Part shown: one piece after another, positions 32,014-37,737 of the stretch
Layout: each line of letters opens with the position of its first letter
Numbering within the stretch: the stretch's first letter is position 1
DNA from: Bradymonas sediminis
GTDB lineage: Bacteria > Myxococcota_A > Bradymonadia > Bradymonadales > Bradymonadaceae
Assembly (NCBI RefSeq): GCF_003258315.1
Contig: NZ_CP030032.1
Span: 534,001 to 598,000, forward strand
Direction: 5' to 3'
DNA: 64,000 nt
Position numbers and translations under genes: made by a program
Notes under the pieces: generated by a model
Databases searched by the model: none
Told to the model about the DNA's origin: nothing
Seen by the model: the letters and a program-made list of their open reading frames with translations, nothing else

Positions 32014-33750
32014 TCAGCCGAAGAGATCGCCCAGCTCGTCGAGCCCATCGGCGAGCTGCTCGCCGGCCTGCTGGGCGTTGGCGGCGCGGGTGTCTAGGGC
32101 GCGCGGCCAGGCGAGCAACTCCTCCAGCAGCAACTCCTCAATCGTGTCGACGGTGCTCGGGCCAATGCCCCGCGCGTTTTGCAGCGTGGTCCGCGACATC
32201 GGCAAATCCCCGAGCGTGAACACCTCTTTTTCTTCCCCCTCATTCCACTCAATCATCGCCTGCTCGAGCTTTTTTAGGCGGCCTTTAAGCGGCGCCAAAA
32301 AGTCGCGAACGGGGCGCGCCTCGATCGTGTCTGCGAAGAGGTCGCGGGCGACCTTGCGCGCCTCCGAGTAGTCGGGCAGGCGCAGATTATACCCTTTTAA
32401 ATGATGGGCGGCGCGCGGCTTTTTGGCGGCCGGGTTCTTTGGGGCGTCGGTGTCTTCGCGAAGCGCGCGCTGGGCTTTGATCAGGCTGACCCAGCGCATG
32501 CGGGCGAGGTGGCGGGTGACGCTATCCTCGAACTCTTGTTGCAGTTGTTTGTGGCGATCCTCGAGTGATTTTCGCGCGCGAGAGATCGGGATATGCGGCT
32601 TAAGTTGCGTCTTCTCAAGCCACTCGTCGCCCAGGTCGAGTAACTCGATCGGCTGGCTGGGCAGCGGGGGGAATTCGCTCAGATCTATCTCCAGATCGTG
32701 GTCGACGTTCAACCAATCCAGGAGGTCTTCGTCACTGGCGATGCGCCGAAGCGACTCAAGCTCGACGGAGTCGCTGCTATAATAATTGACGCGCTGCTCG
32801 ACGGAGTAGCGCATAAAGTCAAACCACTCCAATAGCTCGGCGCGCTCCGCCTCGCCGCAGGCCTGCGCGATCTTAATGTGCCAGAGATGCTTGTCCGGCC
32901 CGGAGGCCAGCGCGATGCGCCGGGTTAGCTCCGTGAAAAAGCGCTCGGGGAAGGTCTGGCGAAGGCGGACCGGTAAGAAATAGAATTTATCGAGGCCGCA
33001 GAGCCCGTAGTCTGGCGAGGTCAATTGCGTGAGGATATCGCGCTCATAATCATCGCGCATGAATTCGAATTTCCGGGGGCTGACCTCGCCGTGCCACCCG
33101 CGGCGCGCCTCGACGCGCTTGAGGCGCGCGCCTGCTTGAGGGGGCATCTCCATCGAGAAGATCAGGGCCGCGCACCCGGCTAAATTCTCTTGAAGGCTGG
33201 CGGAGTTAGCGATCTGCAGGCGGTCGAGATCGACCAGCCATCCGGCGCGGATATCGCCGAGCTTGGCGCTGACGGGAATGCCGTCGGTGTCGGTGATGAC
33301 GCGCACGCGGGAGGGCGAATAGGTCGGGGCGTCATTCGCGTTCTCATCGCGGTCGGGCAGGCCGATCGCTCGCCATGAGAAGCCGTCGCGCCCGTCGGAG
33401 TCATCGCCCACGCATTCCCAGGCGGCGAAGGGCGAGGCCATGATTTGCTCGCGCATCGCGCGCATATCCTGGCGCACCAGATAGTGAAATTGGCGCACGA
33501 AGACGCGGCGTTTTCCGAGCACGCTGTCGGCGGCGAAGAACGCGTAATTGCTCAAGAAATGATGCGCCACCGAGTTCGAACGCAGGTGCGGCGCGACCCG
33601 CAGGGTCGCCACCACGCGCCGAAGCGTGTCAATGCCGAGCTCCTGCGCGGCGGTGTTATAGGCGTTCACGCAATGGCGGCGCAGCACGCCGGTCATTTGA
33701 ATCGTGGTGTTAAGCGCGACGTTTTTTGATGTGTTTTTCCAGCGACTCAT
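32014..33750 (-). CDS. uncharacterised protein coupled to the malate synthase gene
   Basis: 578-aa cytosolic protein with no known family recognised. It lacks a signal peptide and strong membrane segments. Residues about 520-560 (LGDLPMSRTTLQNARGIGPSTVDTIEELLLEELL) look like a helix-hairpin-helix or RNA-polymerase alpha-CTD-type fold, which may bind DNA or protein. The rest is helical and charged. The gene starts inside the stop of the upstream malate synthase gene (ATGA, 33747-33750), so translation should be coupled and the products probably act together. It has no counterpart elsewhere in the window. Confidence 0.7.
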   Translation of the reverse strand: MSRWKNTSKNVALNTTIQMTGVLRRHCVNAYNTAAQELGIDTLRRVVATLRVAPHLRSNSVAHHFLSNYAFFAADSVLGKRRVFVRQFHYLVRQDMRAMREQIMASPFAAWECVGDDSDGRDGFSWRAIGLPDRDENANDAPTYSPSRVRVITDTDGIPVSAKLGDIRAGWLVDLDRLQIANSASLQENLAGCAALIFSMEMPPQAGARLKRVEARRGWHGEVSPRKFEFMRDDYERDILTQLTSPDYGLCGLDKFYFLPVRLRQTFPERFFTELTRRIALASGPDKHLWHIKIAQACGEAERAELLEWFDFMRYSVEQRVNYYSSDSVELESLRRIASDEDLLDWLNVDHDLEIDLSEFPPLPSQPIELLDLGDEWLEKTQLKPHIPISRARKSLEDRHKQLQQEFEDSVTRHLARMRWVSLIKAQRALREDTDAPKNPAAKKPRAAHHLKGYNLRLPDYSEARKVARDLFADTIEARPVRDFLAPLKGRLKKLEQAMIEWNEGEEKEVFTLGDLPMSRTTLQNARGIGPSTVDTIEELLLEELLAWPRALDTRAANAQQAGEQLADGLDELGDLFG

Positions 33751-35831
33751 CGCGAAAAGATCTCGTGTTCGGGGCAGATTTCGCGCAGTGTTTCCCAGGG
33801 ATTCTCGGCATCGCGCACATAATCAAGGGTGAATGGGAGCATCCATTCGGTGACGAATTCGGGCGGGTTCGCGCTGAGCACCAGCTTGCGCAGCAGGCGC
33901 TCGGCGGTCGGATACCAGCGCGCCGCCTCGCCATCCCAGCGCACCTCGACGCGGCGGGTCTCGGTGTCTTCGCCGTTGCGGATAAACTCCAACTCCTCGG
34001 CCAATATTTGCTCGAAGATCTCTTCGGAGACCCGGCCATGCGCGGCCTCGGCCCACAGCTCCCAGCGCGAGCGCTCGGTGGTGGCCAGGTCGTCCATAAT
34101 GCGCACGAAGACGTCTTTGCCGCGCGCGTTTTTCTTGGTCGCCGGCAGCGCCACGCAGCCGTTCCCGCGCAGCCAATCCGCCAGGTATTGGACCGCCTGG
34201 AAGATATTATAGCGGACCTCGCGCGGGTCGTGATTCTCCATGACGTCGGACTTCTCGATGGAGGCGGCCAGGACCGCGCGCAGATAATTCGGGTCATCCT
34301 CGCGCAGGCCGTCGACATCGTCACCGAAGACAAATTCGAGCAGGGCGCTGCGCTCGACGGCGTCCGGGACCAGCTCGGCGATAAGGCGCTCAAGGACATC
34401 CGCGTCGCCTTCGCTATCCCAGCGGCGAAACGCCTCGACCAGCGCGATGCCGGTGCGCACAAAGTCGGGATGGGCGACCCAGAAGCCGTCCAGCCCGCGT
34501 TTGAGCTGAGTGACCACGTCCTTGATATAGCCGACCATGCTGACCTCGAAGGAGGCCGGGTTGCCGGATTCGTAGAGCACCCCGTACATCCCGCCGATGG
34601 CGATCGCGTTGATGGGCGCCAGCGCGCTGACCAGGATCTCGTGGGACTCCTTAATATGGTTGATGACGATATCGGGGTCGGCCTTGATCGGGATGCGGTA
34701 GCGCGGGTCGTTGCGCAACAGGCGCGCGGTCGATGCCAAAAAGTCGTGCCAGCCGAGGCTTCCGCCCAGGAAATAGGGTTGCAGGGCCTCGGCCATCTCG
34801 CGGATGCGAAAGATCGCGCGCGGGTTCTCGAAGACCACGAAGAGGCGGATATTGCCGGGGCGGTATTCGGGGTGCAGCTCGACGAGCATCCGCTCGGCCT
34901 CGGCGATCATCGTCTTAATATAGGCGGCCTCTTCTTCGTTCTCGAGCTTCGGCAGATAGAAGACCAGGGCTTCTTCGAGGCGCCAATTGAAATAGAGGTG
35001 CAGGGCGAAGTCGAAGAGGTGCAGCGGCAGCGGGTTGCCGTCGAGCAGGTGGTTTCCGTCGGGCAGGGCGAGGCCGGGGATGCGCTTGATGGGGTTGGAA
35101 AGATGCTCTTTTTGAAGGGAGTAAGTTTTTGTTTTTGCGGGGTTTTTCGCGTCTTCTTGGGTGAAGGAGAGGGTCTTCTCGAAGCAGGCGCTCAGGTTAT
35201 TCGTGGCGCGCAAAAAGTCGCGCATGATCGGCGTTTTGGAGTCCTCGTTATCGGCGCCCCAGCGCGGGTTTGCCCCCGATGCCTCGACCAATTCGGCCAC
35301 CAACGCCGACTCGCCGGGCAGGCGGCGGTGCCAGGCGTTCATCGCGTTGATCGACATCTTCTCGGTGTCGGGCGGGCCGAAGAGCGTGACCTGCATGCCC
35401 TTTAGAAAGTCGGGGGTCTCTACTTTGGTGCGCGGCGTTGAGGCAGAACCCGGGAGCGGTCCGATCACGATGCGGCCGCTGGCGTCCACATGCCCAAGCG
35501 GCGTCTTATACTCGGGCGATAAATAATCGAGCGCGGCGTTGGTTTCGACCGCGGCGGCCACGATCTTGTCGATGAAGTCGCGATCCGCGCGGCGTTGCTC
35601 GAGCACCCGGCGAAGCTCGGCGCGGGTGCGTCGGTATAATTCGCAGACGAAATTAAGCGCCTCGGCTGACTCCAATTTCGGGAACGACTCCACCAATCCC
35701 GGCGCGACTTTGAGGCCGGGGACCCCGTCCACCGACTCGCCATTGTCTTCGAGTTTTTGGAGGAGCGCGGCGGGCAGATAGTCTAAATAATAGGGGATAT
35801 CATATGCGTTCATGCTGGAGTCGTCCGTCAT
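33747..35831 (-). CDS. divergent malate synthase (MSA-type)
   Basis: 694-aa protein, longer than the usual 530-residue malate synthase A, which condenses glyoxylate and acetyl-CoA to malate. Landmarks: GMQVTLFGPPDTEKMSINAMN (145-165), NPRWGADNEDSKTP (188-201), LLDGNPLPLHLFDFALHLYFN (262-282), FYLPKLEN (291-298), predicted Mg ligands E335 (FVVFENPRA) and D363 (LGWHDFL), GLDGFWVAHP (446-455), YLADWLRGNGCVALP and catalytic Asp D581 (IMDDLATTERSRWELW). The conserved RPRGWHL segment is altered (PIKRIPGLALPDGNHL, with R250), so activity needs testing. It is coupled to 32014-33750, and pta lies upstream on the same strand. No isocitrate lyase is in the window. Confidence 0.85.
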   Translation of the reverse strand: MTDDSSMNAYDIPYYLDYLPAALLQKLEDNGESVDGVPGLKVAPGLVESFPKLESAEALNFVCELYRRTRAELRRVLEQRRADRDFIDKIVAAAVETNAALDYLSPEYKTPLGHVDASGRIVIGPLPGSASTPRTKVETPDFLKGMQVTLFGPPDTEKMSINAMNAWHRRLPGESALVAELVEASGANPRWGADNEDSKTPIMRDFLRATNNLSACFEKTLSFTQEDAKNPAKTKTYSLQKEHLSNPIKRIPGLALPDGNHLLDGNPLPLHLFDFALHLYFNWRLEEALVFYLPKLENEEEAAYIKTMIAEAERMLVELHPEYRPGNIRLFVVFENPRAIFRIREMAEALQPYFLGGSLGWHDFLASTARLLRNDPRYRIPIKADPDIVINHIKESHEILVSALAPINAIAIGGMYGVLYESGNPASFEVSMVGYIKDVVTQLKRGLDGFWVAHPDFVRTGIALVEAFRRWDSEGDADVLERLIAELVPDAVERSALLEFVFGDDVDGLREDDPNYLRAVLAASIEKSDVMENHDPREVRYNIFQAVQYLADWLRGNGCVALPATKKNARGKDVFVRIMDDLATTERSRWELWAEAAHGRVSEEIFEQILAEELEFIRNGEDTETRRVEVRWDGEAARWYPTAERLLRKLVLSANPPEFVTEWMLPFTLDYVRDAENPWETLREICPEHEIFSR

Positions 35832-35890: not shown

Positions 35891-36532
35891 TTAGGGTTGC
35901 TTGCGTTGGGCGACCTGGCGCGCGGCCTCGTCGACCGACAACAGGTCTTCGTTAAGCAATTCATCATCGAATTGGGCGGCGTCGAGCTGGGCCTCGTCCA
36001 AGAGGGCGTCGAATTCGGCGGCGACCTCGTCTTCATCGTTCAACAGGTCCTCGCCGTCGGCCTGGGGAGAGTCGGCGAAGTCCGCGAAGAGATAGACCTC
36101 TTGCCCTGCCGAGGTCATCTTTTGCTCGCAGACGCCTTCGACATAAAACGCGTCGAGGATGTCGCGGGCCGCCTCGGTGCTCAGGCGGCATTCGAGCGCC
36201 GCCTCGCTCACCGTGATTTGGCCGGCGCGGGCCTGCGCGACGCGCAGGATGCCGCGCGCGCCGGGGCTGGCGAGCAGGTCGGCGCGCGATACGGTGAACT
36301 CCGGTCTGCGCAGGGCGCTGCGCACCATCAAGCCGGCCAGGAAGAAACCCACCAGGCTCATGGCGGCGCCCAAAATGCTCACCAGGCTCAGGCCGGCGCT
36401 CATCCATTGGGAGATCGCCGCGCCGATGATGGTGAGGCTGACCATCGTGATGAGCAAAGCGATAAACGCCAGCCCGAGCCGTCGCATGGCTTCGGTCGGG
36501 TCTGGCTCGTTTTGAGAACTGCGTGGTGACAT
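35891..36532 (-). CDS. membrane protein with winged-helix-like module
   Basis: 213-aa protein, two predicted membrane helices near the N-terminus (about residues 20-70), then a winged-helix-like module (FTVSRADLLASPGARGILRVAQARAGQITVSEAALECRL ... EQKMTSAGQEVYLF) and an acidic tail rich in Asp, Glu and Leu. The module resembles those in the protein at 3721-5250. I chose the ATG at 36532, right before the charged N-terminus, over one at 36580. Neither has a strong ribosome site. Function unknown. It lies between pta and the malate synthase gene on the same strand. Confidence 0.6.
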   Translation of the reverse strand: MSPRSSQNEPDPTEAMRRLGLAFIALLITMVSLTIIGAAISQWMSAGLSLVSILGAAMSLVGFFLAGLMVRSALRRPEFTVSRADLLASPGARGILRVAQARAGQITVSEAALECRLSTEAARDILDAFYVEGVCEQKMTSAGQEVYLFADFADSPQADGEDLLNDEDEVAAEFDALLDEAQLDAAQFDDELLNEDLLSVDEAARQVAQRKQP

Positions 36533-36636
36533 GATGATCGTGGCAATGTTTGGGAGCAATGGACCCGGCCACCATAGCATAACTTCGCGTCATCGCATCC
36601 AGCGCATTTTTGGGCGCGGGGTCGCGCCGTATTGGC

Positions 36637-37737
36637 TCAGGCGAAGACGCCGGGGGATGCGTCGGGGCCGCCGAGGGTGAACTCGAAGCCCATGGGGTGA
36701 AGCATCGGCGGGGCGAGCTGAAGGTGTGCGCGGGCGTAGGCTGCGGTGAGGGCGATGGTGCCGAGGATATCGCGGGTTTGGGCGGCGCGTGAGACAAGTC
36801 CGATCGGGAATTTAAAGCCGTGGAGCACCGGTCCGCACACGGTGGCCGACGACAATTGTTGGGCGACCTTGATGGCGATATCGCTGGCGTTGAGGTTTGG
36901 AAACACGAGAATATTGGCCTGGCCGGCGACGCGATCTTCCATCAGCTTCTGGGGGGAGAGCTTGCAGCGCGCCGCACGCGAGCTCAGGGCGGCGTCGAGC
37001 TGCAATTCGCCGCCGACGTTGAGGTCCGGGGCGCGTCGGCGGACCTCGTCGAGCGCGCGGGCAACATGCTGGCAATGGGGCTCGAGCGGGTGCGGGTAGG
37101 TGGAGTGCGAGAGCATCGCCACGCAGGGGTCCCAGCCGAGGATCGCCTCGGCCAACTCGGCGGTGTTTAGCGCGATCTCGGCTAACTCGCAGGCGGTCGG
37201 GGATGGGTTGATGAGGCAGTCGGAGAGCATCAAGACGCGCGGCTTTTGGCTTGCGCTGCCGGGGATCTCCAGCAGGGAAAAGCTGCTGGGCATCCGGGTG
37301 TCGGCGCGGGTGCCGATGGCCAGATCGATGGCCATCAACATCTCCTGGTTTGAGCAGGTCGAGCCGGCGACCATCGCGTCGGCCATGCCCTGATCGAGCA
37401 TCATCGCCGCGAAATAGAAGGGGATGCTGCTCATCGCCCGGGCGGAATGCGCCGGGATATCGCGCGTCTCGGCGAAGTCCTGAGCAAACGCATCGAAGAG
37501 CTCGGAGGTCTCGGGATCGAGCACTTCAATGCCCTCGAGCCCAAAGCCCATGGCGTCGCTTATCTGGGAGATCTCGTCGACGGGGCCAAGGAGGATGGGC
37601 TGGATCAAGCCGATGCGTTCGGCGCGCCGCGCGGCCTCGATCACGCGAGGGTCATGGCCATCCGGAAAGACGACGCGGCACATCGGCGCTTCGAAGTTCA
37701 AGAAAAGATCGAATAAACTGTGGTTTCTTATGGTCAT
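36637..37737 (-). CDS. pta: phosphate acetyltransferase
   Basis: 366-aa PTA/PTB-domain enzyme that interconverts acetyl-CoA plus phosphate and acetyl phosphate plus CoA. Motifs: VFPDGHDPRVIEAARRAERIGLIQPILLG, the block DAMVAGS, SDCLINPSPTACELAEIA, MLSHSTY (phosphotransacetylase SxSTxG-like region), NVGGELQLDAAL and the C-terminal VFPNLNASDIAIKVAQQL. Length matches the short catalytic form without the DRTGG N-terminal region. No ackA was found here. The adjacent malate synthase also uses acetyl-CoA, so linked control of acetate use is plausible. Confidence 0.88.
   Translation of the reverse strand: MTIRNHSLFDLFLNFEAPMCRVVFPDGHDPRVIEAARRAERIGLIQPILLGPVDEISQISDAMGFGLEGIEVLDPETSELFDAFAQDFAETRDIPAHSARAMSSIPFYFAAMMLDQGMADAMVAGSTCSNQEMLMAIDLAIGTRADTRMPSSFSLLEIPGSASQKPRVLMLSDCLINPSPTACELAEIALNTAELAEAILGWDPCVAMLSHSTYPHPLEPHCQHVARALDEVRRRAPDLNVGGELQLDAALSSRAARCKLSPQKLMEDRVAGQANILVFPNLNASDIAIKVAQQLSSATVCGPVLHGFKFPIGLVSRAAQTRDILGTIALTAAYARAHLQLAPPMLHPMGFEFTLGGPDASPGVFA

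Follow-up and report, generated by a model that had tools for sequence, protein, structure and literature searches.

An enlarged, divergent malate synthase family associated with urate and ureide catabolism in bacteria

A 64,000-nucleotide stretch of the Bradymonas sediminis genome (contig NZ_CP030032.1, positions 534,001 to 598,000; here called the window) codes for a malate synthase-like protein of 694 amino acids (aa), and raises the question of which pathway and which substrate such a long form of the enzyme, here named MSX, might serve. The original prediction, made from the sequence, described a divergent enzyme, possibly with another substrate, and joined it to a 578-aa protein and to a module including pta; the first part stands but the partner and the module do not, and the actual context is urate and ureide catabolism. 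MSX represents an overlooked and uncharacterised family of enlarged malate synthases in the urate clusters of many bacteria. With a probability of roughly 0.6, it serves the ureide pathway as a malate synthase and removes the need for ureidoglycolate lyase (UGL; AllA/Dal3, PF04115), by whichever chemistry, a reading drawn from sequence and genome context (the fold, the conservation of catalytic residues, the operon context, gene fusions, and the absence of UGL).

The enzyme and its active site

MSX belongs to the malate synthase superfamily but not to malate synthase A. The malate synthase landmarks first recognized from the sequence correspond to Pfam matches over cut-off to PF01274 (MS_TIM-barrel; 71.1 bits, cut-off 26.4) and PF20659 (MS_C; 40.7 bits, cut-off 23.1), whereas the malate synthase A equivalog of NCBIfam, TIGR01344, gives 127.4 bits, so far under its cut-off of 594.5 that the protein is counted as divergent. 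An AlphaFold2 model computed from a 40-sequence alignment (mean predicted local distance difference test score [pLDDT] 92.8, predicted template modelling score [pTM] 0.92) has as its best PDB match Escherichia coli malate synthase A (3cv2; Z 36.9, 2.3 Å over 502 residues, 28% identity), followed by Bacillus anthracis malate synthase A and then the G isoforms. The structural alignment and profile searches proposed at the outset thus agree on the fold and the superfamily and fall short of the equivalog, and they support a real, divergent malate synthase that is probably active.

The protein had been called 160 residues longer than usual, and it does exceed by 157 aa the 537-aa canonical AceB that B. 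sediminis also has. In the alignment this surplus consists of an N-terminal extension and about a dozen scattered insertions, with no single added domain; a discrete extra domain, such as a UGL-like one, was considered as its source and rejected because the length is spread out and the Pfam scan gives no PF04115 match up to an E value of 10. The scan likewise gives no match to PF22484 (DUF6986).

Active-site residues were compared among 40 MSX relatives and in an alignment with 31 canonical enzymes. E335 and D363, predicted as Mg ligands, and the predicted catalytic D581 are indeed invariant in the 40 relatives, and R250, E335, D363, W451, C559, and D581 are all kept relative to the canonical enzymes; from their E. 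coli counterparts we take R250 to be the catalytic Arg, E335 and D363 the Mg ligands, W451 the pocket Trp, C559 a conserved Cys, and D581 the catalytic Asp. The canonical RPRGWHL segment, earlier described as changed, reads RIPGLAL in MSX, although its catalytic first Arg (R250) is unaltered and invariant. At about 40 sites where the canonical enzymes share one residue, the MSX sequences share a different one. Among these sites, just before the Mg ligand D363, canonical R290 and W291 become W361 and H362 (GRWD in the canonical enzymes, GWHD in all 40 MSX), and canonical V179 becomes K249, immediately preceding the catalytic Arg. Such switches are compatible with an enzyme that is active but whose substrate site has changed; the identity of the substrate is not indicated by them.

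Association with urate and ureide genes

A family-wide scan yields 65 named MSX loci, mostly from Myxococcota or deltaproteobacterial metagenome-assembled genomes (MAGs), with further carriers in Verrucomicrobia (Roseibacillus persicicus and Akkermansiaceae) and Bdellovibrionota, and a distant copy in Margulisbacteria. When the neighboring open reading frames (ORFs) of these loci are clustered, only three families occur at 10 or more of them: allantoinase (17), HIUase (14), and PuuD (12), the last being a membrane urate oxidase. Pfam confirms these three and also identifies uricase, allantoicase, and OHCU decarboxylase among the MSX gene runs, where genes often overlap; no recurrent linkage to aceA is seen among the MSX loci. 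In two cases MSX is fused to enzymes of the urate pathway. One, OHCU decarboxylase-MSX, is in a Verrucomicrobial locus (L053) that also has urate oxidase, (S)-ureidoglycine aminohydrolase, allantoinase, and allantoate amidohydrolase, and the other, MSX-OHCU decarboxylase-beta-lactamase-like-allantoicase, is in a proteobacterial MAG (L098). Fusion of a serine beta-lactamase-like domain (PF00144) to allantoicase is itself seen twice in proteobacterial/Bdellovibrionota loci (L098:7004-11677 and L097:10975-13263).

Co-occurrence was counted over 284 genomes of the phylum, in which allantoicase is present in 78, MSX in 46, and full-length UGL in 17. Allantoicase accompanies MSX in 41 of its 46 genomes (compared with 37 of the 238 others) and UGL in 17 of 17, and MSX and UGL share no genome, so that the 78 allantoicase genomes include 41 with MSX and 17 with UGL. 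Raw P values, which ignore kinship, are 2.7e-22 for MSX with allantoicase and 2.5e-7 for MSX versus UGL within the allantoicase genomes. Mapped onto a tree of allantoicase, the presence of MSX switches 12 times or more across supported branches, and MSX has therefore been gained and lost often. An independent-pairs test of MSX against UGL or DUF6986, with DUF6986 counted also where MSX is present, gives ∼6 opposite pairs and 0 same (median P of 0.03). The association of MSX with the ureide pathway is solid.

Among the 20 allantoicase genomes with neither MSX nor UGL, 15 have DUF6986, which could be yet another substitute at the ureidoglycolate step; the remaining five are near MSX carriers on the allantoicase tree, three are less than 82% complete, and missing contigs are a likely cause. 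In the examined urate clusters lacking both UGL and MSX (L117-L125), DUF6986 adjoins HIUase or allantoicase (for example, L119:8474-9922, L120:8404-9813, and L122:11412-12854). Two UGL-type clusters (L116:4086-5669 and L131:7453-9473) have a separate glyoxylate consumer, which is canonical AceB in genome G106 and, in genome G153, a class-V aminotransferase immediately following UGL.

Through the named loci, 37 MSX genomes were reached, several of them already in the phylum set; 29 have allantoicase, and none of the 37 has UGL over cut-off. Four of the eight without allantoicase, all outside the phylum (a Verrucomicrobia MAG, an Akkermansiaceae MAG, Roseibacillus, and a MAG labelled Planctomycetaceae), have (S)-ureidoglycine aminohydrolase, the second enzyme known to supply (S)-ureidoglycolate. 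Ureidoglycolate amidohydrolase was considered as a hidden replacement for UGL and rejected: just 6 of the 46 phylum genomes with MSX have a TIGR01879 protein scoring over cut-off, and B. sediminis is not among them. Verrucomicrobia do have this family, which their allantoate amidohydrolase would lead one to expect.

The B. sediminis genome itself (one contig of 5.05 Mb) has a complete urate cluster at 4.538-4.543 Mb, coding for allantoinase (TIGR03178, 573 bits, cut-off 358), an allantoicase-OHCU decarboxylase fusion (TIGR02961, 420 bits, cut-off 278), HIUase (TIGR02962, 144 bits, cut-off 87), and PuuD (PF06181, 429 bits). Neither UGL nor DUF6986 was found in this genome, nor any hydantoinase/ureidoglycolate-amidohydrolase relative over cut-off, and MSX is the only candidate seen in it for the step after allantoicase. 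A canonical aceB adjoins aceA at 4.826-4.829 Mb, separate from MSX, so the earlier remark that isocitrate lyase is lacking holds for the window and not for the genome.

Neighboring genes in the window

The features of the locus are listed in Table 1, and the extents of the two large ORFs are as originally given. The junction between them reads ...gcgATGAgtcgc and bears out that the 578-aa ORF starts inside the MSX stop codon; pta is upstream on the same strand, as described, though the 229-aa ORF intervenes.

Table 1. Features of the MSX locus, in coordinates of the window
Feature	Coordinates	Strand	Basis
MSX, long malate synthase of 694 aa; proposed to act last in urate/ureide catabolism	33747..35831	(-)	Pfam, predicted model, urate-operon context of the family
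578-aa ORF whose start shares ATGA with the MSX stop; considered not to belong functionally	32014..33750	(-)	No family; homologues unlinked to MSX in relatives
229-aa ORF between MSX and pta	35891-36580	(-)	Just upstream of MSX
pta-like gene upstream of MSX; judged not to belong	36637..37737	(-)	PF01515, 259 bits; beside MSX in no other locus examined
R250 codon, catalytic Arg (first Arg of canonical RPRGWHL)	35082..35084	(-)	Invariant in MSX and 31 canonical enzymes
E335 codon, Mg ligand	34827..34829	(-)	Invariant in MSX and canonical enzymes
W361-H362-D363 codons, Mg ligand D363 and the two preceding residues	34743..34751	(-)	GWHD in 40 MSX, canonical GRWD
D581 codon, catalytic base	34089..34091	(-)	Invariant in MSX and canonical enzymes

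None of the three neighbors forms a conserved unit with MSX, and within up to 7 kb on either side none of the relatives' MSX loci has the 578-aa ORF, the 229-aa ORF, or pta beside it. The 578-aa protein has no family match in Pfam or NCBIfam, as anticipated, and a profile of its family has no convincing relative in the PDB. It belongs to a small Bradymonadales family with an invariant, hairpin-like GIG motif and a C-terminal GLDELxxLFG, and has homologues in six other genomes, four of them good matches at ∼30% identity. MSX is carried by four of these six, with the 578-aa homologue on other contigs or, in G146, ∼0.9 Mb away. The co-occurrence check by which the proposed partnership was to stand or fall thus goes against it, and the 578-aa protein is rejected as a partner of MSX; the ATGA overlap is local to this lineage, because the pair is unlinked in relatives. 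The acetyl-CoA/glyoxylate module fares no better, with pta adjoining MSX in no relative's locus examined. The 229-aa ORF has a predicted hydrophobic stretch and a weak winged-helix-type match (EutK_C) below cut-off.

Proposed role, alternatives, and relation to known systems

It is very probable that MSX acts at the end of the ureide pathway. Urate would be opened by PuuD or uricase and processed by HIUase, OHCU decarboxylase, and allantoinase, after which allantoicase, or allantoate amidohydrolase with (S)-ureidoglycine aminohydrolase, would yield (S)-ureidoglycolate. MSX would then join the two-carbon unit of ureidoglycolate to acetyl-CoA, giving CoA and, we infer, malate, with release of urea. 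Direct use of ureidoglycolate by MSX is a tentative proposal, as is that of a bifunctional ureidoglycolate lyase/malate synthase converting (S)-ureidoglycolate, acetyl-CoA, and water to malate, urea, and CoA in one active site; genome context and the mutual exclusion with UGL suggest that MSX may be what releases the urea. In the malate synthase reaction the Mg ion holds glyoxylate, and an Asp takes a proton from acetyl-CoA with help from an Arg. Because ureidoglycolate is an adduct of glyoxylate and urea, it could lose urea on the Mg site and leave glyoxylate bound there, which would make UGL unnecessary. A single Mg-containing site would most likely serve both steps: the Mg held by E335 and D363 would bind the carboxylate and hydroxyl of ureidoglycolate, urea would leave, and the enolate of acetyl-CoA, made by D581 with assistance from R250, would attack the bound glyoxylate.

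Several observations weigh against a replacement of UGL by MSX. In B. sediminis MSX is unlinked to the urate cluster and ∼1 Mb from it (if the contig is circular), which is why the urate context is invisible from the window. Allantoicase is undetected in five MSX genomes, two of them more than 90% complete, and MSX and DUF6986 are found together in four genomes. For MSX versus UGL alone there are ∼2 opposite independent pairs and 0 same (median P of 0.5), too few to exclude a purely phylogenetic cause; the exclusion of UGL is consistent, yet the support for its independence from phylogeny is modest. Ureidoglycolate also decays spontaneously to glyoxylate and urea (PMC3793230), so the absence of UGL need not mean that an enzyme has replaced it.

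This decay is part of an alternative in which MSX is an ordinary glyoxylate-using malate synthase of the ureide pathway, and ureidoglycolate either decays by itself or is cleaved by a lyase that is encoded elsewhere and has gone unrecognised. Yeast Dal7 has just such a role in disposing of allantoin-derived glyoxylate (PMC3646786), and every residue for glyoxylate condensation is kept in MSX. We regard it as unlikely, since taken alone it leaves unexplained both the absence of UGL in MSX genomes and the switched, then invariant, loop before the Mg ligand, and yeast retains both Dal3 (UGL) and Dal7. If MSX were simply a second glyoxylate-shunt enzyme of general function, its malate synthase fold and catalytic residues would be accounted for, but this is very improbable: linkage and fusions are with urate genes rather than aceA, and the shunt role is rejected for B. 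sediminis because its aceA adjoins the canonical aceB, so that the function attached to TIGR01344 does not extend to MSX, as judged by context. Just as improbable is a synthase acting on another 2-oxoacid (for example, of the citramalate or alkylmalate type), unrelated to ureides and working with the 578-aa protein and pta. The ATGA overlap, the shared strand, and the altered substrate loop speak for it, but the neighbors are beside MSX in no other locus examined and the recurrent context is ureide catabolism. The earlier suggestion of a different substrate survives in that MSX may well handle something besides free glyoxylate, and not in the form of this 2-oxoacid synthase.

If MSX does serve the ureidoglycolate step, it would correct an annotation as plain malate synthase that places the enzyme in the glyoxylate shunt; no other malate synthase is detected in 26 of the 46 MSX genomes, for which automatic annotation would suggest a shunt that is possibly absent. 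Two enzymes are known to convert ureidoglycolate to glyoxylate, UGL and ureidoglycolate amidohydrolase (PMC6320678), and many allantoicase genomes have no known enzyme for ureidoglycolate, for which MSX offers a third answer. Were the direct reaction true, purine-ring catabolism would have a third way of completing its last step, without release of free glyoxylate, and a textbook fold would have a new activity, carrying nitrogen-rich waste into central carbon metabolism. A literature search, covering few subscription papers, found no paper on the MSX family, on a malate synthase acting on ureidoglycolate, or on DUF6986; the superfamily fold is known, and the pathway assignment of the MSX family is new.

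Among known systems, UGL shares the pathway position of MSX, directly after allantoicase, but is an unrelated small protein (∼160 aa) never sharing a genome with it. DUF6986 is by weak Pfam matches a distant malate synthase/HpcH relative, also in urate clusters, but is shorter (∼470 aa), has no MS_C match, and sometimes occurs with UGL or MSX; a closer relationship to MSX was rejected, the profile comparison not being convincing. Yeast Dal7 is comparable by role, as a malate synthase serving allantoin breakdown (PMC3646786), but it works alongside Dal3, whereas MSX is found where UGL is absent. Malate synthase A (AceB; E. coli 3CUZ/3CV2; TIGR01344) has the same fold over 502 residues and the same catalytic Arg, Mg ligands, and Asp, but MSX exceeds it by ∼157 aa, has 28% identity to it in the structural alignment, is switched at ∼40 invariant positions, and is found in urate rather than acetate operons.

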